From Candidatus Yanofskybacteria bacterium RIFCSPHIGHO2_12_FULL_45_19b (lineage in GTDB: Bacteria > Patescibacteriota > Minisyncoccia > 2-02-FULL-40-12 > IGHO2-12-FULL-4): DNA of 41,031 nucleotides. Where the stretch lies: contig MGKD01000023.1 in the NCBI GenBank assembly GCA_001794605.1, forward strand, positions 1 to 41,031, written 5' to 3'. The notes below the pieces were generated by a model, which saw only the letters and a program-made list of their open reading frames with translations, searched no databases and was not told where the DNA came from. The translations under genes and the position numbers were made by a program. How positions within the stretch are numbered: the stretch's first letter is position 1; each line of letters opens with the position of its first letter. Below, in pieces: positions 570 through 33,731 of this stretch.

Positions 570-3500
570 CTATTCTACTTCCGGTTCTATCACACTCGGC
601 AACGATGCCCCATAGCCCGTACCAGCGGGGATGAGCCGACCGATGATCACATTCTCCTTGAGACCACGCAGGCGATCCTCTTTGCCTAAGACCGCGGCAT
701 CAATTAAGACCTTGGCAGTTTCTTGGAAGGAGGCGGCGGAGAGGAAGCTTTCGGTGGAAAGCGCCACCTTACTAATACCTAACAGAATTAACTCATAAGA
801 GGCCTCAGTGCCACCGGCCTGACGGGTAATTTCGTTTTGCTCTAAGACTTGACGGCGCTCCACAATATCCCCTGGCAACAAAACGGTATCGCCTGGATCT
901 AAGATGCGGGCACGCGAGGTCATCTGACGAACGATTAACTCCACGTGTTTGTTGTTAATACCTTCACCAGTGGAGAAGTAGACACTCTGTACCTCACGAA
1001 TAATGTAACGCGCGACGATACCAATATCTTTCACGGTATGGTAGAGTTCTTTGAGATCAAGGTGACCTTCACTTAACTGCTGACCAACCGTTACTAAGTC
1101 CCCTTCTTTTACCCACAAGGCCTGACCAAAGGGTACTACAAAGGTGCGCTCTTCGCCGGCACTAGTGAGCATGGTAATAGTATATTGTCGCCCGCTCTCT
1201 TTAATTTCTTTGACACTACCATCCACATCAGACAGACTAGCCTGCATGGCCGGCACACGGGCTTCAAAAATTTCTTCGACCCGCGGCAAGCCCATGGTAA
1301 TATCACCGCCACCGGCGACACCACCACTGTGGAAGGTACGCATCGTTAGCTGAGTACCTGGTTCACCGATCGCCTGCGCCGTAACAATACCGACGGCCTG
1401 ACCAATTTCGACTAAACGATTCTTAGACAGGTCGAAACCATAACAACGCTGACAAACGCCTTCGCGTGACTTGCAAGTAATCAATGAGCGAATTTTAACT
1501 TGCGGAATACCAGCGGCATCAATCTGCGCCGCCATTGCTTTATCAATTAATCCGCCCTTTTTAACAATCAAATTACCAGCTTTATCTTTAATGTCTTCCA
1601 GAGTGGTGCGGCCTTTGACGCGTTTGCCCAAAGTTTCACCCAAATGCTTACCCTCTTCCAGAAACATCATATAACCAACAGTGTCTTTACAATCGGCCTC
1701 ACGCACCACCACATCCTGAGCCACATCTACTAAACGACGGGTTAGGTAACCGGCTTGTGCGGTGTTCAAGGCAGTATCTACCAAACCTTTGCGTGCGCCG
1801 TGCGTAGATAAGAAGTATTCCAAAACGCTCAACCCTTCCTTGAACGAACCCTTGACTGGCAACTCAATAATTTCACCGCTCGGGTTAGTCATTAAACCGC
1901 GCATACCGACTAGCTGGTTAACCGTAGACCAAGTACCGCGCGCGCCGGACTCTACCAAGATATAGACGGCATCTTCCGGTTTAAAGTTCTCTTTAATTTT
2001 CTTTTCTAAGTTAGCCTTGGTGTCAGTCCAAATTTCAATCGCCTTAGTTTTGCGTTCGTGTTCGGTTAAAAGACCTTGTTCATACAAAGCGTGACTTTCC
2101 TCTACTGCTTTCTCGGCTGCGGCAATCATCTCTGGTTTCTCTACTACACTATGCATGTCGTCCATGGAGAAAGAGACACCGGATAAAGTAGCATGATGGA
2201 AACCAAAATCTTTAATCCGGTTGAGCAAGCGCACGGCTTCCACTTCACCGCGTTCGTCTAAAATTTCCGCCTCCAGTCCCTTGAGCGATCCCTTGGCCAT
2301 GGTCTTGTTTAAGAAACGGAAATCTTCTGGTAGACCACTATTGAAAATCAGGCGACCAACTGTGGTTTCCAGCAAGCCAGACTTGTCTAGTTCTTTTTCA
2401 TCAATCTTTTTAGCCGGTGGCACCTTAATTTTGGCACGTAGATCAACAAAACCATTTTCGTGAGCCATTAAGGCCTCGGGCATTGAGGAGAAGATTTTAC
2501 CCTCGCCCTTTAACCCATCAATCATCTGGGTTAGGTAGAAGCAACCAAACACCATGTCTTTCGATGGGGCCGCGACTGGTTCACCCGTGGAAGGCTTCAA
2601 AATGGCATGACTAGCTAACATCAACTCACGCGCCTCAGTTTGCGCCTCTTCGGTTAAGGGTAAGTGGACGGCCATCTGGTCACCATCGAAGTCAGCGTTA
2701 AAAGCGGCAGTCGGCAAGGCTGGAATCTTAATGGCCTTACCTTCAATTAAAATGGGTTTAAAAGCCTGCACACCCAGGCGGTGCAAAGTCGGAGCACGGT
2801 TTAGCAGGACTAGTTTATTTTCGATTGACTCTTCCAGGGCCTTCCACACTTCTGGAGTTTGCTGATCAATTAAACGATTGGCGGAACGAATGTTGTGCGC
2901 CAGGTCAGCTTTAATTAAACGGTGTACCACGAATGGTTTAAACAACTCCAAAGCCAAGTGTTTTGGTAAACCACACTCATCAATATCTAAATCCGAACCG
3001 ATCACAATCACGCTACGGCCGGAGTAATCCACCCGTTTACCGAGCAGGTTCTGACGGAAGCGGCCCGTCTTACCCTTCAACATGTCAGACAAAGACTTAA
3101 GCGCCCGTTTTTGGCCAGTCGAGGCCGAGATCATAGTCTGACCACGACGCATGGAGTTATCAATCAAGGCATCTACTGCTTCTTGCAACATGCGCTTCTC
3201 GTTCTTCATGATAACCTCTGGCGCGCGCAACTCGAGCAAGTGTTTCAAACGATTGTTACGATTAATCACGCGGCGGTATAAGTCATTTAAATCAGCCGTG
3301 GCAAAACGACCACCATCCAGCGGTACCATGGGGCGAAGCGCTGGCGGGATCACTGGCAAGATCTCCATGATCATCCACTCCGGACGAATGTTATTCTTGT
3401 GCATCCCACGCAACAATTTTAAGCGACGCAGCAATTTTTTACGCAGATTGGGGTTATCGGTAATTTTTAGATCGGACTCGCTACGGTCAGCTTCCGCTAC

Positions 3501-10300: not shown

Positions 10301-11080
10301 CACATATTCTTATATCACTATAAGTGTAGACTATATCTTTCTCCTCCCGCCTTGGCGGGATAGGAGATCGGCATATTATAACTAGTCTTTGACATTATCG
10401 CCTCACTAGCCATCTCTCCCTTGGATAAATCCTTAGGATCAGTCGTTACGGGGTCAAACCTAAAATTGTTTCAAGTTCTGATTTAGACTTCTTGTTCTTG
10501 GTCGCATAGTTTTCTGATTGAATGGTCAAGATGTAATTAATGATTCTTTCAAGCCTAGCTCTGTTTAATTCTGAAATTTTATTTTCCACCAGCAGTGCCG
10601 TAGCCTTGCTAAGCGCTAGCGCCTGATGTTTTTTGAATTTTACATAAGGCATAATATTTTTCAGAATTTCGTTCACCGGCTTAAACCCATTAATTCGCAA
10701 TTCGGTCATACCGTCATTGCGTCTTGCTATATAACCAATGCCAAGCTTTTTTCTAATCCAAAATAGTGGTGTTTCATGGCGACTATCTTGATAAAAACAG
10801 ATAGTGCTCATAAACCGCCAGCCTAGCCTACTATCACCACGCTTCTTGATTTGCAACATTAAACTACCGTCTCCATCAAGAAAGCCTGCAATATAAGCTA
10901 GATCAATTTTAGATTGACTTCCCACGGTATTGTCTTAATAATTTCTGGTCCTCAAGTAATTGTACCACAGCTATCGGACCGATAGTAATTGTGGTTATCA
11001 ACGGATACAGATTTATTAAGATTCCACCGTTATTAGCCGAATTGTCATCACAGATTACTCCGTGAAGTAGCAATTATTTT
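10301..11080 (-). other. Group I intron in 23S at L2656 (sarcin-ricin loop)
   Basis: Exons join to CUCUAGU|ACGAGAGGACC; group I P7 strands AAAGACUA / GAUAUAGUC; intron ends in G; contains a LAGLIDADG ORF. Confidence 0.88.
10446..10925 (-). CDS. LAGLIDADG homing endonuclease, in L2656 intron
   Basis: 159 aa with IAGFLDGDGS motif. Confidence 0.9.
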   Translation of the reverse strand: MGSQSKIDLAYIAGFLDGDGSLMLQIKKRGDSRLGWRFMSTICFYQDSRHETPLFWIRKKLGIGYIARRNDGMTELRINGFKPVNEILKNIMPYVKFKKHQALALSKATALLVENKISELNRARLERIINYILTIQSENYATKNKKSKSELETILGLTP

Positions 11081-11142
11081 ACTAGAGACAACCCCCCTCA
11101 AGTATCAACGCCCGCACCAGATAAGGACCAACCTGTCTTGCG

Positions 11143-11882
11143 CAAAATATATTTCTTGGAAATTATTTCGGACTATACCTTATTCCATTTTTAGATGGAA
11201 TCCAACGTCTTATCCCGCTTAGCGGGATCCGTCAGTTTAAAACTGACAAGTCTCTACGGGGTTAGTGTACGAAACTTTCTTTTCTTTGAGTAATTAAGTT
11301 CTCGAAATGAATCAACCAACTTAAGCATCGCCGCAAAATCTTCTTCTTTTTCGATTTTGTTTTTTTGCTCAAGAATTTGTTTCATGAGAGCAATCTGTTT
11401 TCTTTTCAAAATAACAAATGGCTCAACCATTGATATAAATTCCAGGATGCTATCAATTTTATTAATAGTATATTCTAGAATTCCATCTTTTCGAGTTCTG
11501 ATGTAGCCCAAATTAATAAGTGAACAAATTTCTTCAAATTTAGAACGATCTTTAGCTGACTGAAATAGAATAATAGATGGTGCAACCTGAAACCCGTAGC
11601 GATAACCATCATTTGGCTTCGCACGTACATACACGCTACCATCTCCATCTAAAAATCCAGCTAAATAGGCTCTTTTAATTGCAGAAAGTTTATTCTTCAT
11701 ACACAACTTCCCTCGGTATTATCCTAACATATGACAGGTTAAGTTCAATGTTAGATATCCACCGATATGAGTTGGTTTTTCAATCTCGATTACTCGGGAA
11801 AGCCGCCGCTATTGTGTTATTTATCGGGTTCAGACGGTTCTATCCATGATTCATGATACCTACTTCATGATTCACATTCAGA
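11143..11882 (-). other. Group I intron in 23S at L2593
   Basis: Exons join to UUCAGACCGU|CGCAAGACAGG; P7 strands GUAGAGACUU / GGUAUAGUCC; intron segment ACCGUCUGAACCC pairs with the 5' exon GGGUUCAGACCGU at 12 of 13 positions. Confidence 0.9.
11254..11706 (-). CDS. LAGLIDADG homing endonuclease, in L2593 intron
   Basis: 150 aa with LAGFLDGDGS motif. Confidence 0.92.
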   Translation of the reverse strand: MCMKNKLSAIKRAYLAGFLDGDGSVYVRAKPNDGYRYGFQVAPSIILFQSAKDRSKFEEICSLINLGYIRTRKDGILEYTINKIDSILEFISMVEPFVILKRKQIALMKQILEQKNKIEKEEDFAAMLKLVDSFRELNYSKKRKFRTLTP

Positions 11883-12641
11883 ACGGTCTGAACCCAGCTC
11901 GCGTACCCTTTTAATTGGCGAACAGCCAAACCCTTGGGGCCTTCTTCAGTCCCAGGATAGGGCGAGCCGACATCGAGGTGCCGAACTGTGCCGTCGCTAT
12001 GGACGCTCGGGCACAACCAGCCTGTTATCCCCGGGGTAGCTTTTATTCGTTGAGCTTCCGCGTTCCTACGAACCACGGTCGGATCACTAAGTCCTGCTTT
12101 CGCATCTGCGCGACATGTCCGTCTTGCAGTTAAGCCAGCTTGTGCCTTTGCGCTATCGCTCTGATGTCCATCCAGAGCTAGCTGACCTTAATGAACGCCT
12201 CCGTTACTTTTTGGGAGGCTGCAGCCCCAGCAAAACTGCCCACCAGCCACTGTCCCAACCCAGCCCTCTAGGTGTGCGACGTTTTGCGGGAAAAAATTTC
12301 GAATAAAACAAACTATCCACCGAACGAAACTTTATCTTCCCGCGTTTAGTCATGCAACTAAAGGGCGGGGCCGGTTAGAATTACAAATTTTACAGATGAG
12401 TGTTTCATTGGCGTCTCCACCACAACCGAAATCATGGCTTCAAAGACTACTCACTACGCTACGCAGTAAAACTCGTAACCCAATAACAAGCTACAGTGAA
12501 GCTCCCGGGGTCTTTCCGTCTTGGTGCGGGTAGTCGGCATCTTTACCGACATTGCATTTTCACCAGGCTATTGGCTGAGACAGTCCCCCAGTCGTTACGC
12601 TATTCATGCGCGTGGGAACTTACCCCACAAGGTATTTCGCT

Positions 12642-13327
12642 TGACATGTTACAACAACGTGTTGTGGTATTCTTACCCTCTATGTCGCCATAGAGACCGG
12701 ACTATATCTTCTCGCTTCGGTTTATCATTCCGAATGAGTTCGACGTATAGTCTCTGAGGATTCTAAGACTTTATACTTTCTTCGATTCATCGTCTGAAGC
12801 AAAGATCGTACCTCATTCAATCCCTTCTCTGAACGATGTTTTCCCAAAATCATCATTTTGATAATTCTTCGAAAAACCAGAAAATCTTTTTGCTTATAGG
12901 TTTTCAGTTTATTTTTCTCAAAGAACGGAATAATTTTCAGATTAAGATCATCGATAGCTCTGACGCAATATTTTAACATTTGTTCATGATGATTATCTCG
13001 ACGAGTATTGAGATTTATGTAGCCACATTTGAAGAATTTCTCAATTCTTTTTAATGCGCCACGACTCCTTTCGCCTTGACTCACCACGAACTCTGGAAAT
13101 ACCTGCCAGCTTTCTCTTGTGGTTACTGTGCGATTACGAATTATACTTACAGTAAAGCACCCTTCACCATCGACAAAACCACTGATCCAACCTTCTAGTC
13201 TTAGTCTTTCCTGCTGATTGTCTGCACGAGAAGTATTTTCACTCATGGTATCATTATACCATGAGTAACCCTCGATTCTCAGAGTTTCCAGCATATAGTC
13301 GAATTTTATAAAAGCAGTTAATTACCT
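12642..13327 (-). other. Group I intron in 23S at L1931
   Basis: 5' exon UAAAAGU pairs with intron GCUUUUA (U.G at splice site); P7 strands AGAGACUAUA / GAUAUAGUCC; LAGLIDADG ORF. Confidence 0.9.
12725..13294 (-). CDS. LAGLIDADG homing endonuclease, in L1931 intron (start probably at MSENTSRADNQQ)
   Basis: ISGFVDGEGCFTVSI motif. Confidence 0.9.
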   Translation of the reverse strand: MLETLRIEGYSWYNDTMSENTSRADNQQERLRLEGWISGFVDGEGCFTVSIIRNRTVTTRESWQVFPEFVVSQGERSRGALKRIEKFFKCGYINLNTRRDNHHEQMLKYCVRAIDDLNLKIIPFFEKNKLKTYKQKDFLVFRRIIKMMILGKHRSEKGLNEVRSLLQTMNRRKYKVLESSETIRRTHSE

Positions 13328-13341
13328 ACTTTTAGACAGTT

Positions 13342-13639
13342 CATCCTTTTTATTAGTCTCGATGGATTCGATTAACTCACCATCGGACAGCCTCATGGTC
13401 GCCCATGAGATCGGACCATATCTTTCCGCCAACATCTTACGAAGTTTTGGCGGATCTGACGTATGGCCTCTGAGGACTCTCTGGTTTCCCAGGTTGCCTG
13501 CTGATTGTCCGTTGGTCGTCCGAAGCTCATCAGAGCGAAGGGGACCGCACCGAGCACATTTTCACCACTTCTGGTAGTGTCGGATTCAATCGGAGTTTCC
13601 AGCAAATAGTCAGATTTTATAACTACAACTGTCATGTTT
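13342..13639 (-). other. ORF-less group I intron in 23S at L1917
   Basis: 5' exon UAACUAU pairs with intron GUAGUUA (U.G at splice site); P7 strands AGAGGCCAUA / GAUAUGGUCC; shares GCTGGAAACTC segment with the L1931 intron. Confidence 0.87.
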
Positions 13640-13814
13640 ATAGTTACTGCCGTCGTTCACTGGCGCTTCAGGCCTCCGCAGTTCATCCGAAGACAAACCA
13701 CTTCAACCATTAACGTTCCAGCACTGGACAAGCGTCACCCTGTATACATCAGCTTTCGCTTTAGCACAGAGTTGTGTTTTTGATAAACAGTCGCCAGGGG
13801 TCGTTAGCTGCGGC

Positions 13815-29645: not shown

Positions 29646-30577
29646 CATGTATCTCCGAGTATTACTACCGGCATGGACTATATCTTCATCCCTTTTATAA
29701 GGGAGCCAACATATAATACAAAATTTAGATTTTATATTATGGCCACTGGCCAAAGTCTCTACGGGGCTAAGGAGAATCACTTAATTAACCAATTTATATT
29801 GTAACGAGGGAATGACTAGATCGCCAATAAGCTTACGGAAAGCATCCCTACTTTCAGCGCCCACATACAACCGTATTTTGCCATGATTGCCTTGAAGAAA
29901 ACATTTAATTCCAAAATTTTTGTAGATTGCGGATTTCAGCCTTTCATTTTCTTTTACAGAAAAGGACTGCGTGTTCAGATGAAACCCCTGTAATTTACCG
30001 TATTCGATTCGTTTGTTTCCGTCATCCATAAACCAAACCGATAAAACAAAAGGATTTAACATTTCCTCAATATTTATCGGGGCTATCTTTTTACCCTTTG
30101 GATAGAACATCTCTTGAAACTCTTTCAGTTCATGATGACTAACTGTCCGAAACCTAAGTGATTGATTTACGGCTTGCTGTTTTGGTGGTGCCAAAACAAA
30201 ATTTTGTAATTGTCTGTACTTCCAAAATACTAGTTCGCTTTGTTTTATCGAATGTTGTATTTTTAGACAATAATTTTTCCCTGCCCTAGTCTTTTCAAGA
30301 GTCCCATCACCAAGTAGTGTTCCGATAATTAAATCGCGCTGTCTTGGCGAAAAACTTTCGCTTTTCTTGATTAAGTAAGTGATTCTCCCAGCTTCCCTCG
30401 GTATTATCCTCATACCCTAATTATATTTGGCAGCGAGGATTAAGCGAAAATTATTTTCATTTAATCCGAGCGAACCATATATACATAGTATAACAAATTA
30501 GGAGTTGGACTTCACCGATATTAGTTGGATTTTTTTGTCACATTGCTGTGACAAGTCGCAATTTGCAGTATGCACTA
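29646..30577 (-). other. Group I intron in 16S at about S1498
   Basis: 5' exon AAGUCGU pairs with intron GCGACUU (U.G at splice site); exons join to AAGUCGU|AACAAGG; P7 strands GUAGAGACUUU / GAUAUAGUCC. Confidence 0.92.
29781..30413 (-). CDS. LAGLIDADG homing endonuclease, in S1498 intron
   Basis: IIGTLLGDGTLE and LSVWFMDDGNK motifs (two LAGLIDADG-like). Confidence 0.9.
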   Translation of the reverse strand: MRIIPREAGRITYLIKKSESFSPRQRDLIIGTLLGDGTLEKTRAGKNYCLKIQHSIKQSELVFWKYRQLQNFVLAPPKQQAVNQSLRFRTVSHHELKEFQEMFYPKGKKIAPINIEEMLNPFVLSVWFMDDGNKRIEYGKLQGFHLNTQSFSVKENERLKSAIYKNFGIKCFLQGNHGKIRLYVGAESRDAFRKLIGDLVIPSLQYKLVN

Positions 30578-30666
30578 ACGACTTAGCCTTGGTCATCGAA
30601 TCTACCGTAGTGCCATGAAACATGGACCTTCGGGTATCCCCGACTCCCCTGACTTGACGGGCAATT

Positions 30667-31119
30667 GTCCTCTAGAAACTTAGAGTTGACGTTCCCATCG
30701 TACCTGCGGATTTCCCGCATACGACGAGCTCCTGGTGTATAAACACCGAGAGTGAATCCTTCTCTCAAGACTGCTTGAGATACTATGATTCAGCTGACTT
30801 CTGACGCGGCGTCAATTCCATTATACCATTTCTATCACCTAAGCTATAGGTAATATTACGCCAGATATCCCCGAGGTCAGTTAAAATTCTTTTCCAAACA
30901 TCTCTTAAAATCCTGCGCTCGCACCCTGAGTTTTCTCTACGCTCACTGCCAATCATAGATCAACTGGATTTTTACTTTTAAGAGCTGCCTTTTGTTTCCA
31001 ACTCCTTCGACTTAAATCTCACGACCTAAGCCTAGTCTTCAACTACGTCCCATCACGGTCTGATGGGAGGATGGATTTTAACCATCTAGAATATTAACCT
31101 GCCGGGCGCTTTCATTGTG
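30667..31119 (-). other. ORF-less group II-like intron or insertion in 16S near position 1400 (boundaries approximate)
   Basis: ~450 nt interrupting CUUGUACUCAC...GCCCGUC; domain V-like hairpin CGUCGUAUGCGGGAAAUCCGCAGGUACGAUGGG, and UCAGAAGUCAGCUGAAUCAUAGUA typical of the pre-domain V region. Confidence 0.6.
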
Positions 31120-31351
31120 AGTACAAGATCCGGGAACGTATTCACCGCAGCGTTCTGATCTGCGATTACTAGCGATTCCAACTTCAAAGAGGCAAGTTGC
31201 AGCCTCTTATCCGAACTGGGGACAGCTTTGGTGGGATTGGCTCCGGCTCGCGCCTTAGCGACCCATTGTACTGTCCATTGTACCACGTGTGTAGCCCAGG
31301 GCATCAAAGGGCCACGCTGACCTGACGTCGTCCCCGCCTTCCTCCCAGTTC

Positions 31352-31472
31352 ACAACCGACAAAATCGGTAAATCCCAAGCACTAAACAACAAATCACAAA
31401 CAATATTCAATTTTGGAATTTATTTGCTATTTGAGATTTGGATTTTTGAGATTTACCTGCCTTGCAGGTTAG
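31352..31472. repeat. AT-rich insertion in 16S h40 loop
   Basis: Flanked by cccagttc/gaactggg stem; AT-rich body aaatcccaagcactaaacaacaaatcacaaacaatattcaattttggaatttatttgctatttgagattt. Confidence 0.8.
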
Positions 31473-32110
31473 GAACTGGGCAGTCTCGCGTGACATAAGT
31501 AACACGCGACAGGGGTTGCGCTCGTTTCCCAACTTAATGGAACCATTCACATGACGAGCTGACGACGGCCGTGCAGCACCTGTCCAGCCGTCTTGCGAGG
31601 GTCTCGGTTTCCCGAAACTTTCGTCTGGATTTCAAGCCCTGGTGAGGTTCTTCGCTTAGAGTCGAATTAAACCACATGGTCCACCGCTTGTGCGGATCCC
31701 CGTCTATTTCTTTGAGTTTTAAGCTTGCGCTCGTACTTCCCAGGCGGCAGGCTTAACGCGTTAGCTTCGCCACCAGGAGGGTCGATGCTCCTAATAGCTA
31801 GCCTGCATCGTTTAGGGCGTGGACTACAAGGGTATCTAATCCTTTTTGATCCCCACGCTTTCGCGATTGACTGTCAGCGCGGCGCTAGCAAGCTGCTTTC
31901 GCTTTTGGTATTCCGTGCGATATCAACGGATTTCACCCCTACACCGCACGTTCTGCTTGCCTCTCACCCGCTCTAGTAATGCCGTTTCCAATGCGGCCTC
32001 GAGGTTGAGCCTCGAGATTTAACACCGGACTAACATCACCAGCTACTCGCTCTTTACGCCCAGTAATTCCGGATAACGCTTGGGGCCTTCGTATTACCGC
32101 TCCTGCTGGC

Positions 32111-33058
32111 CGGTATTACACAATACTAATGAAGTATGTTTAATTTTGGACTATATCACCATCCTCTTTTAATAAAAAGGATGCCTAGCGTTTTATGGAG
32201 ACTCAAGAGTCTCCATCCGACCAATCAATTGGTCGAGTCTCTGAGGGGTTAATTATAATTTTAGATGTTCGAACGGAGGAATCTTATACTTGAAGCACGG
32301 CAAGAGATATGGTTTTATCGTCTCGATAAATTTATCCCTACCTGCCACTCCAATATACAGCTCCGGATAGCGCACACCGCGACAAAGCGGAGCTTGCACC
32401 GAAGTAATAATCCCAAAATTTTCCTTCAAAACACCTATTAGCAGTCGATTTTCTTCTAAGGTAAAGCTGTTGGTAGATAGCGAATAATTATAGTGGCTTT
32501 TGGGCCGATAATCTAAACTACCATCATCCATATACCAAACCGCCAGACTTAGAGGATGAGTCAATATTTCTTTGATGTCTCTTGGAACAATTTTTTTACC
32601 ATCAGGATAAAAAGATTGTCTAAAGAAACACAGATCTTTGTTGGACGAAGTCATAAATTTCCATTGCTTATTGTCTTTGCGTTGTTTAGGTTCGCTTGGA
32701 CAAAAATTTGATAGATTTTCATACATCCAGAAAACATAATCCCTTTGCTTTTCTGAATGCTTTATCTCAAGATAACAATCATTATATCGATCACGATAGA
32801 GATAGCCATCTCCGAGTAATGTTCCAACTAATATCCGTTTTTGTTCAAAAGAAAGTTTGCTCATTTACTACATAATTATAGCAACTTCCCTGCTGATTTT
32901 CCAGTAATTTTGTTAATAAAATCAACAAAATTTTAATTCAGATTGTCACCCACTGGGGTACTGAATTATTGACTGGGTTTTCCAGCATATAAGCTAAGTT
33001 TTTCCTTATTGCCTTACGGCAATAGGTCGCGCCCCCGCCCGAAGTGGTGGGAGATTTC
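32111..33058 (-). other. Group I intron in 16S at S516
   Basis: Exons join to CUAACUUCGU|GCCAGCAGGAGCGGUAAUAC; P7 strands CAGAGACUC / GAUAUAGUCC; intron ends in G. Confidence 0.88.
32253..32864 (-). CDS. LAGLIDADG homing endonuclease, in S516 intron
   Basis: LVGTLLGDGYLY and LAVWYMDDGSLD motifs. Confidence 0.92.
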   Translation of the reverse strand: MSKLSFEQKRILVGTLLGDGYLYRDRYNDCYLEIKHSEKQRDYVFWMYENLSNFCPSEPKQRKDNKQWKFMTSSNKDLCFFRQSFYPDGKKIVPRDIKEILTHPLSLAVWYMDDGSLDYRPKSHYNYSLSTNSFTLEENRLLIGVLKENFGIITSVQAPLCRGVRYPELYIGVAGRDKFIETIKPYLLPCFKYKIPPFEHLKL

Positions 33059-33308: not shown

Positions 33309-33731
33309 AGGACCTAGGCTGCTCCAGAAGTGCCTTGCGGCTTTACTCTTGCGAGACCATCGGGAATTAGTCTGCCTTTCGGCAGATTATGCCCGGCTTC
33401 AGGGTACATACCAAGGTGTTACTAACTCGTTCGCCACTAACTTATCTCTTCCGTCGCCTTGATGTAATCGCAACTTCTTCCAAAATAAGTCCGTTCGACT
33501 TGCATGCCTTATCCACGCCGCCAGCGTTCATCCTGAGCTAGAATCAAACTCTCAATAATAGTAAATGAATAAATTCACTTACCTCCGATCTAGTTAACTG
33601 TAACAGATAACAATAACTTTCTTTTCACTTTTAATTTCACCAGTCTGACAAATTTTCAAGTTGCTATTGTCGCTTCGTTTTAGACAAGAACCTAAAAGGC
33701 CCGCCCTCCGGAAAAGACAACCACGATTATC

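Follow-up and report, generated by a model that had tools for sequence, protein, structure and literature searches.

The closest described relatives of the intron reported here are insertions at site 16IS9 (position ~1400) in the 16S rRNA genes of CPR bacteria. In its main text, Tsurumaki 2024 (PMC11270868) assigns 53 of these to group II by Rfam, 39 with LAGLIDADG and 14 without, and reports none with a reverse transcriptase (RT). A group II intron beside group I introns, which the original prediction for our locus thought would be remarkable, had thus already been published for the CPR in that text and, as rns-1396, for giant sulfur bacteria (PMC13190283). Our locus lies in a 41,031-nt stretch of DNA, hereafter the window, from Candidatus Yanofskybacteria bacterium RIFCSPHIGHO2_12_FULL_45_19b.

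Mutations of the catalytic triad or of the two-nucleotide bulge of domain V cripple the splicing of group II introns, and the bulge is described as AY. The triad is described as AGC or CGC (PMC4424553, PMC12350094). In the Oceanobacillus iheyensis intron, triad C358-G359-C360, bulge A376-C377, and J2/3 A287-G288-C289 make up a major-groove triple helix (PMC3669008), and this catalytic triplex consists of base triples among triad, bulge, and J2/3 (PMC6224600). U80 and C61 of U6 participate in the homologous triplex of the spliceosome (PMC11331412, PMC6224600). The single change C377G in O. iheyensis makes the first step tenfold slower, impairs the second step, and favors an inactive state (PMC3669008).

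A group II-like insert in the 16S decoding region

The 16S gene of the Yanofskybacteria genome lies on the minus strand, starts at 33551, and is interrupted by several inserts; the only 16S matches in the assembly (0.6 Mb, 92% complete) come from this locus. One insert of 453 nt is flanked by CUUGUACUCAC in the 5' exon and by (U)GCCCGUC, that is UGCCCGUC, in the 3' exon. An intronless genome of the same family (G004) carries the empty site CTTGTACTCACTGCCCGTCA, which equals the predicted spliced exons exactly; the boundaries of the insert are therefore 31116 and 30664, and the joined exons are natural 16S. The predicted insert and its length hold, but the predicted coordinates (31119 to 30667) were 3 nt off. 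With the boundary set by the empty site, the insert ends in ...GACAAU, the AY 3' end of group II introns. Its fold is much more stable than that of shuffled sequences (z −4.8), and the same insert occupies the same 16S site in dozens of further genomes. Its features outside domain V, all on the minus strand, are the following.

31116 to 30664, minus strand: the intron, 453 nt with exact ends, delimited by Rfam and comparative alignment; empty site CTTGTACTCAC^TGCCCGTCA in intronless G004
31117 to 31121, minus strand: IBS1, CUCAC, the last 5 nt of the 5' exon, pairing with EBS1 GUGAG
31107 to 31116, minus strand: 5' end AAUGAAAGCG, no GUGYG; an A-rich linker of ~7 nt is followed by the conserved GCGCCCGGCAG
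30942 to 30946, minus strand: EBS1, GUGAG, carried by the terminal loop of a hairpin in D1, identified as the complement of IBS1 and by the family-wide match of introns to their own exons
30756 to 30843, minus strand: motif of the D1 3' end, D2, and D3, matched by RF01998 (group-II-D1D4-1; 33.3 bits, E 0.0019)
30793 to 30795, minus strand: probable J2/3, AGC, placed by similarity to Oceanobacillus J2/3 A287-G288-C289 (PMC3669008)
30731 to 30759, minus strand: short domain IV hairpin in the place of the ~150-amino-acid LAGLIDADG gene of relatives, from comparison with a relative (L006)
30667 to 30690, minus strand: domain VI hairpin, from the fold, with two unpaired A's on its 5' strand and no bulged branch-site A

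The RF01998 match, which falls just below the gathering cut-off of 35 bits, coincides with the motif UCAGAAGUCAGCUGAAUCAUAGUA that had been said to recall group II introns. The Infernal and Rfam check suggested with the original prediction gave this match just under the cut-off, but none for RF00029 (the D5/D6 model) in the insert even up to E 10; group II status accordingly depends on D1D4-1 and on comparative evidence. RF01998 matched 24 of 389 genomes of the phylum and 53 of 392 of the class, and every such locus inspected lies at 16S ~1396 to 1400. The CGC triad of its relatives and the D1D4-1 motif make the window intron a candidate for group IIC, a subclass characterized by a IIC-type D1 (no IC2) and a DIV-DV linker A, with D1 taken as a whole rather than by subdomain. 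Homology is established by comparison: the insert shares site and sequence with the 16IS9 lineage, is placed with it on the intron tree, and has a relative (L006) with LAGLIDADG_1 in domain IV (E 1.6e-17). It is a member of the IIC-like group II lineage already reported at CPR 16S ~1400, and the prediction that it is group II-like, ORF-less, and located in the 16S decoding region is supported on all three counts. Another genome of the same family (G001) has the same intron with a 150-amino-acid LAGLIDADG_1 protein in domain IV. From D3 to the exon, the window intron measures 140 nt, versus 547 to 571 nt in CGU introns (see below) that carry the endonuclease insert.

The exon pairing covaries across the family. 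In 117 of 141 introns, a 5-nt EBS1 that complements the intron's own exon end perfectly lies 130 to 225 nt from the intron start; when exon ends were re-dealt among introns 2,000 times, the mean was 51.8 such introns and the maximum 65. EBS1 also tracks the insertion site: UGUAC faces GUACA at 1396, GAGUA faces UACUC at 1397, UGUGU or UGAGU faces ACACA or ACUCA at 1398, and GUGAG faces CUCAC at 1399, the pairing expected of group II introns and the one found in the window. The helices of the core covary as well. In the D1-D3 consensus fold of 31 related cores, 75 of 89 pairs vary on both sides and 95.5% of cells are paired, figures that are somewhat flattering in absolute terms because the fold was derived from the alignment on which it was scored. 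Together with the RF01998 match, these pairs give the window intron a group II D1-D3 core. Its core is 59 to 69% identical to those of its nearest relatives, yet all 35 positions of its domain V agree with theirs.

The lack of a GUGYG 5' end was predicted correctly; the A-rich linker found there is present throughout the main clade and missing from the sister group at site 1397. By fold, a bulged branch A in domain VI is missing from 20 of the 21 CGU introns with mapped ends, the window included, and the remaining one has an unpaired A 6 nt from its end. Of 33 sister introns at site 1398, 25 have retained a bulged A, located 8 nt before the 3' end.

We also noted that E. coli position 1400 in the decoding site (window 30661 to 30663; also G004 and L199 to L206) is mostly U, not C, in 16S genes of this order. 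Of the 13 intronless genomes from the order, 9 have U, as do 4 of the 67 genomes that gave a match in a sample of the class; besides G004, eight intronless genomes of the order read CACTGCCC and four read CACCGCCC. Since intronless genomes show the same U, it belongs to the host 16S and lies outside the intron.

Two further 16S inserts (29781 to 30413 and 32253 to 32864, minus strand) encode LAGLIDADG_2 proteins (E 8e-43 and 1e-36) and give weak matches to the group I model RF00028 (29.5 and 17.0 bits), so that, with the 453-nt insert, three introns break the 16S gene. Within 31116 to 30664, RF00028 has no match up to E 10, and a group I identity was rejected for this insert. At ~31355 to 31465 there is an A/T-rich insert of ~110 nt with inverted repeats and no ORF, which is not a recognized intron. 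The 530 loop (~32076 to 32087, minus strand) reads CAGCAGGAGCGG versus the usual CAGCAGCCGCGG, with two changes near E. coli 518-519, and adjoins a group I intron. The 23S region (10446 to 13704, minus strand) contains a group I intron (13392 to 13704, 60.7 bits) and three LAGLIDADG_1 ORFs; as two of these lie beyond the 23S end called by cmscan, the 23S gene probably extends downstream of that end.

Triad and bulge in domain V

The original prediction described a domain V-like hairpin with a GAAA loop and a 2-nt bulge. The hairpin and bulge are present at 30728 to 30694, but the apex is not a GAAA tetraloop: it consists of 4 bp and the 5-nt loop GAAAU, or of 5 bp and AAA if G-U closes. The elements of this domain are as follows.

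30694 to 30728, minus strand: domain V, CUCGU CGUAU GCGGGAAAUCCGC AG GUACG AUGGG, a layout shared by 69 distinct sequences
30724 to 30726, minus strand: catalytic triad CGU, with partner strand AUG at 30698-30696; the canonical form is CGC or AGC
30704 to 30705, minus strand: two-nucleotide bulge A30705 G30704, AG in 22 of 22 CGU introns; proposed triple G30704. U30724-A30698

The two-nucleotide bulge and the central G.U of the triad are as in group II introns, and across 136 sequences each position of domain V is paired in 96 to 100% of cases, the pairs of the lower stem being of many types. The predicted CGU triad is correct in the standard register, in which the three pairs are located 5 bp below the bulge. 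The window (CGU/AUG) and 21 other distinct relatives lack the canonical AGC or CGC triad, and the window bulge is AG instead of AY; because of its triad the window intron is barred from canonical group II membership and counts as a variant.

Among 155 distinct domain V's from the 16S site, 133 have a CGC triad, with a pyrimidine as the second bulge base in 133/133. In the other 22, among them the window intron, CGU pairs with AUG, and the bulge is AG in 22/22; there were no mixed triad/bulge forms among the 155, so that three bases are linked. This set combines pattern matches with introns found by D1D4 alone, scored regardless of the bulge; 13 loci whose domain V was not parsed automatically stand outside the count, and a chance pattern match in Paraburkholderia (L057), which had no rRNA context, was excluded. 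A GTDB scan, which accepted C or U as the third triad base and A or G opposite it and placed no constraint on the bulge, gave at least 119 rRNA matches (at least 101 CGC/GUG and at least 18 CGU/AUG), with no mixed form among the matches listed. A degenerate pattern was required: a 29-nt domain V pattern with three mismatches allowed matched only the window in 389 genomes of the phylum.

The window domain V differs from the nearest CGC domain V at exactly positions 5, 25, and 31. Between them, these are the third base of the triad, the base that it pairs with, and the second base of the bulge. In every CGU type, moreover, the pair beside the triad is C-G and the bulge begins with A, and the lower stem often differs between the two types too (CGYRU versus GUAGU). 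No other core column tracks the triad type (top mutual information, 0.28 of 0.87). Canonical RF00029 introns of the phylum whose hairpins parsed have AGC with a bulge of AC or UU, which fits a C-G third pair with a pyrimidine.

Two genomes of one genus (L165, L174) have a domain V in which C-A replaces C-G as the first triad pair, with partner GUA. One 16S intron (L034) contains the same domain V twice, ~230 nt apart (3091-3125 and 3318-3352), a tandem duplication or an assembly artifact.

In group II structures, it is specifically the third pair of the triad that the second bulge base contacts. This contact is supported by the roles of U80 and C61 in the triplex of U6 (PMC11331412). The three linked positions are those of the bulge-triad base triple in the active site of group II introns and the spliceosome. 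The natural CGU introns carry the G of C377G, but with U-A replacing C-G as the third pair. Given the defect of C377G in O. iheyensis, a G at the corresponding place could be harmful unless compensated. We infer a swap of donor and acceptor, in which a pyrimidine accepting from the amino group of C gives way to a G donating to the carbonyl of U.

The CGU triad had been taken as a sign of inactivity, and the insert as degenerate. The triad instead proves to be the novel part of the intron, recurring in 22 distinct introns, and the conserved domain V type, the covarying D1-D3 helices, the intact EBS1-IBS1 pairing, and the exact empty site likewise speak against degeneracy. Judged by these features, the window intron does not look degenerate and appears to be intact.

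Spread of the CGU type and proposed splicing

On a tree of 141 intron cores, with domain V left out, the CGU type requires seven changes, three of which are forced by well-supported branches. In the clearest cases, a CGC intron lies within a clade of 12 CGU introns (support 100/100) and a CGU intron within five CGC introns (100/99). Both the intron core (AU p 0.0026) and the endonuclease tree (p 3.5e-5) reject a single origin of the CGU type in one clade. An independent-pairs sign test on well-supported branches gave 3/3, too few for significance.

Repeated switching and exchange of the 35-nt domain V between introns are both compatible with this scatter. Because the lower stem often changes with the switch and a C-G always stands next to the CGU triad, exchange of domain V is a serious contributor. 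Carried further, exchange might account for the whole pattern: the CGU/AG domain V would be a hitchhiking allele spread by recombination, and its three linked bases would have no joint structural meaning. The C-G next pair and first-bulge A common to all CGU types would fit such an allele, as would a domain V of just ~35 nt that is nearly identical among them and a scatter on both trees like that expected from short-tract exchange. We nevertheless regard it as rather unlikely, since the nearest CGC form differs solely at the three positions of the triple, other domain V positions vary in both types yet never yield a mixed triad/bulge form, and the linked bases are those brought together in the triplex by structures. 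We think it reasonably probable that the third catalytic triple has two natural, interchangeable versions, pyrimidine. C-G and G. U-A, and that these have switched as a three-base unit several times in working Patescibacteria 16S introns.

If so, these introns provide a triple covariation, found in nature, for the catalytic triplex common to group II introns and the spliceosome, and the joint change of the bulge base and the third pair of the triad would be sequence evidence for a base triple known from crystal structures. The CGU/AG introns would also offer a ready three-base swap that could be tested in group II introns and, given the homology, in the spliceosome. Profile searches based on the canonical domain V overlook introns of the CGU type.

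We consider it highly probable that the window insert is a group IIC-like intron at 16S 1399/1400, lacking both RT and ORF, that it belongs to the CPR 16IS9 lineage, whose spread relies on a LAGLIDADG endonuclease gene in domain IV, lost from this copy, and that it is likely excised by RNA catalysis with a G.U-A triple. EBS1 (GUGAG) would hold the 5' exon (CUCAC), and domain V would form a two-metal active site in which G.U-A replaces the usual pyrimidine.C-G as the third triple; excision would most likely be RNA catalyzed, and the exons would be joined as CUUGUACUCACUGCCCGUC. The lack of a bulged A in domain VI and the A-rich 5' linker in place of GUGYG make hydrolysis likelier than branching, and the first step is probably hydrolytic. 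Liu 2026 (PMC13190283) argues likewise for group II-LHE introns that have a linker but no branch A.

A decaying remnant that no longer splices, leaving the rRNA cleaved and fragmented in the manner of 23S intervening sequences, would account for the missing ORF, GUGYG, and branch A, for the noncanonical triad, and for an Rfam score slightly under the cut-off. The insert, however, sits in the decoding centre of the sole 16S gene found, its empty site is exact, and EBS1-IBS1, the D1-D3 helices, and domain V are kept despite the divergence of the rest from its nearest relatives, all of which makes decay very unlikely and leads us to infer that the intron splices. That a group I or archaeal-type (bulge-helix-bulge) intron occupies this hot spot is scarcely credible: group I introns flank the insert in the same gene and archaeal introns use nearby 16S sites, but RF00028 picks out the two neighboring inserts and not this one, and covarying D1-D3/D5 and EBS1-IBS1 are group II features.

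It is also conceivable, though doubtful, that splicing requires a protein in trans, either the LAGLIDADG protein of a neighboring intron or another host factor. Two LAGLIDADG_2 proteins are encoded within the same 16S gene, and homing endonucleases can serve as maturases (noted in PMC11270868); the endonuclease of related introns, however, belongs to another Pfam family than these neighbors. The trans-acting maturase whose search the original prediction proposed did not emerge from the genome: neither of its two RTs matches the GIIM domain, and their scores (132 and 100 bits) are far below the 300-bit cut-off of the group II maturase model TIGR04416. These two RTs of the 0.6-Mb genome lie at 1330-2415 (L211) and 1327-1911 (L212), and their motifs seem to resemble those of RTs from diversity-generating retroelements.

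Comparison with described introns

A natural G. U-A version of the spliceosome/group II triple was not found in the open-access literature searched, nor was a description of a coordinated CGU/AG active site. The window intron is a member of a known lineage, and its three-base CGU/AG change appears to be undescribed. It shares gene, site, and host group with the CPR 16IS9 introns and nests among introns at this site; the main text of Tsurumaki 2024 (PMC11270868) contains no analysis of domain V, the triad, EBS1, splice sites, or the branch point.

The rns-1396 group IIC-LHE introns of Thiotrichaceae (PMC13190283) resemble the window lineage in their RT-less IIC backbone and 16S neighborhood, and they carry a single-motif LAGLIDADG protein in domain IV, as do the relatives of the window intron. 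Their insertion point is 3 nt upstream of the window site. Liu 2026 (PMC13190283) lists no CPR members and gives a 34-nt domain V for most families; compared by description, the window layout is one nucleotide shorter, with the same register and a 4-bp/5-nt apex.

The window intron and the group IIC intron of O. iheyensis (PMC3669008) share the CG- start of the triad, its middle G.U, a two-nucleotide bulge, J2/3 AGC, and EBS1-IBS1. They differ in that O. iheyensis has CGC with bulge A376-C377, whereas the window has CGU with bulge AG and a U-A third pair. The U2/U6 catalytic triplex of the spliceosome, in which U80 and C61 of U6 take part (PMC11331412, PMC6224600), is homologous.
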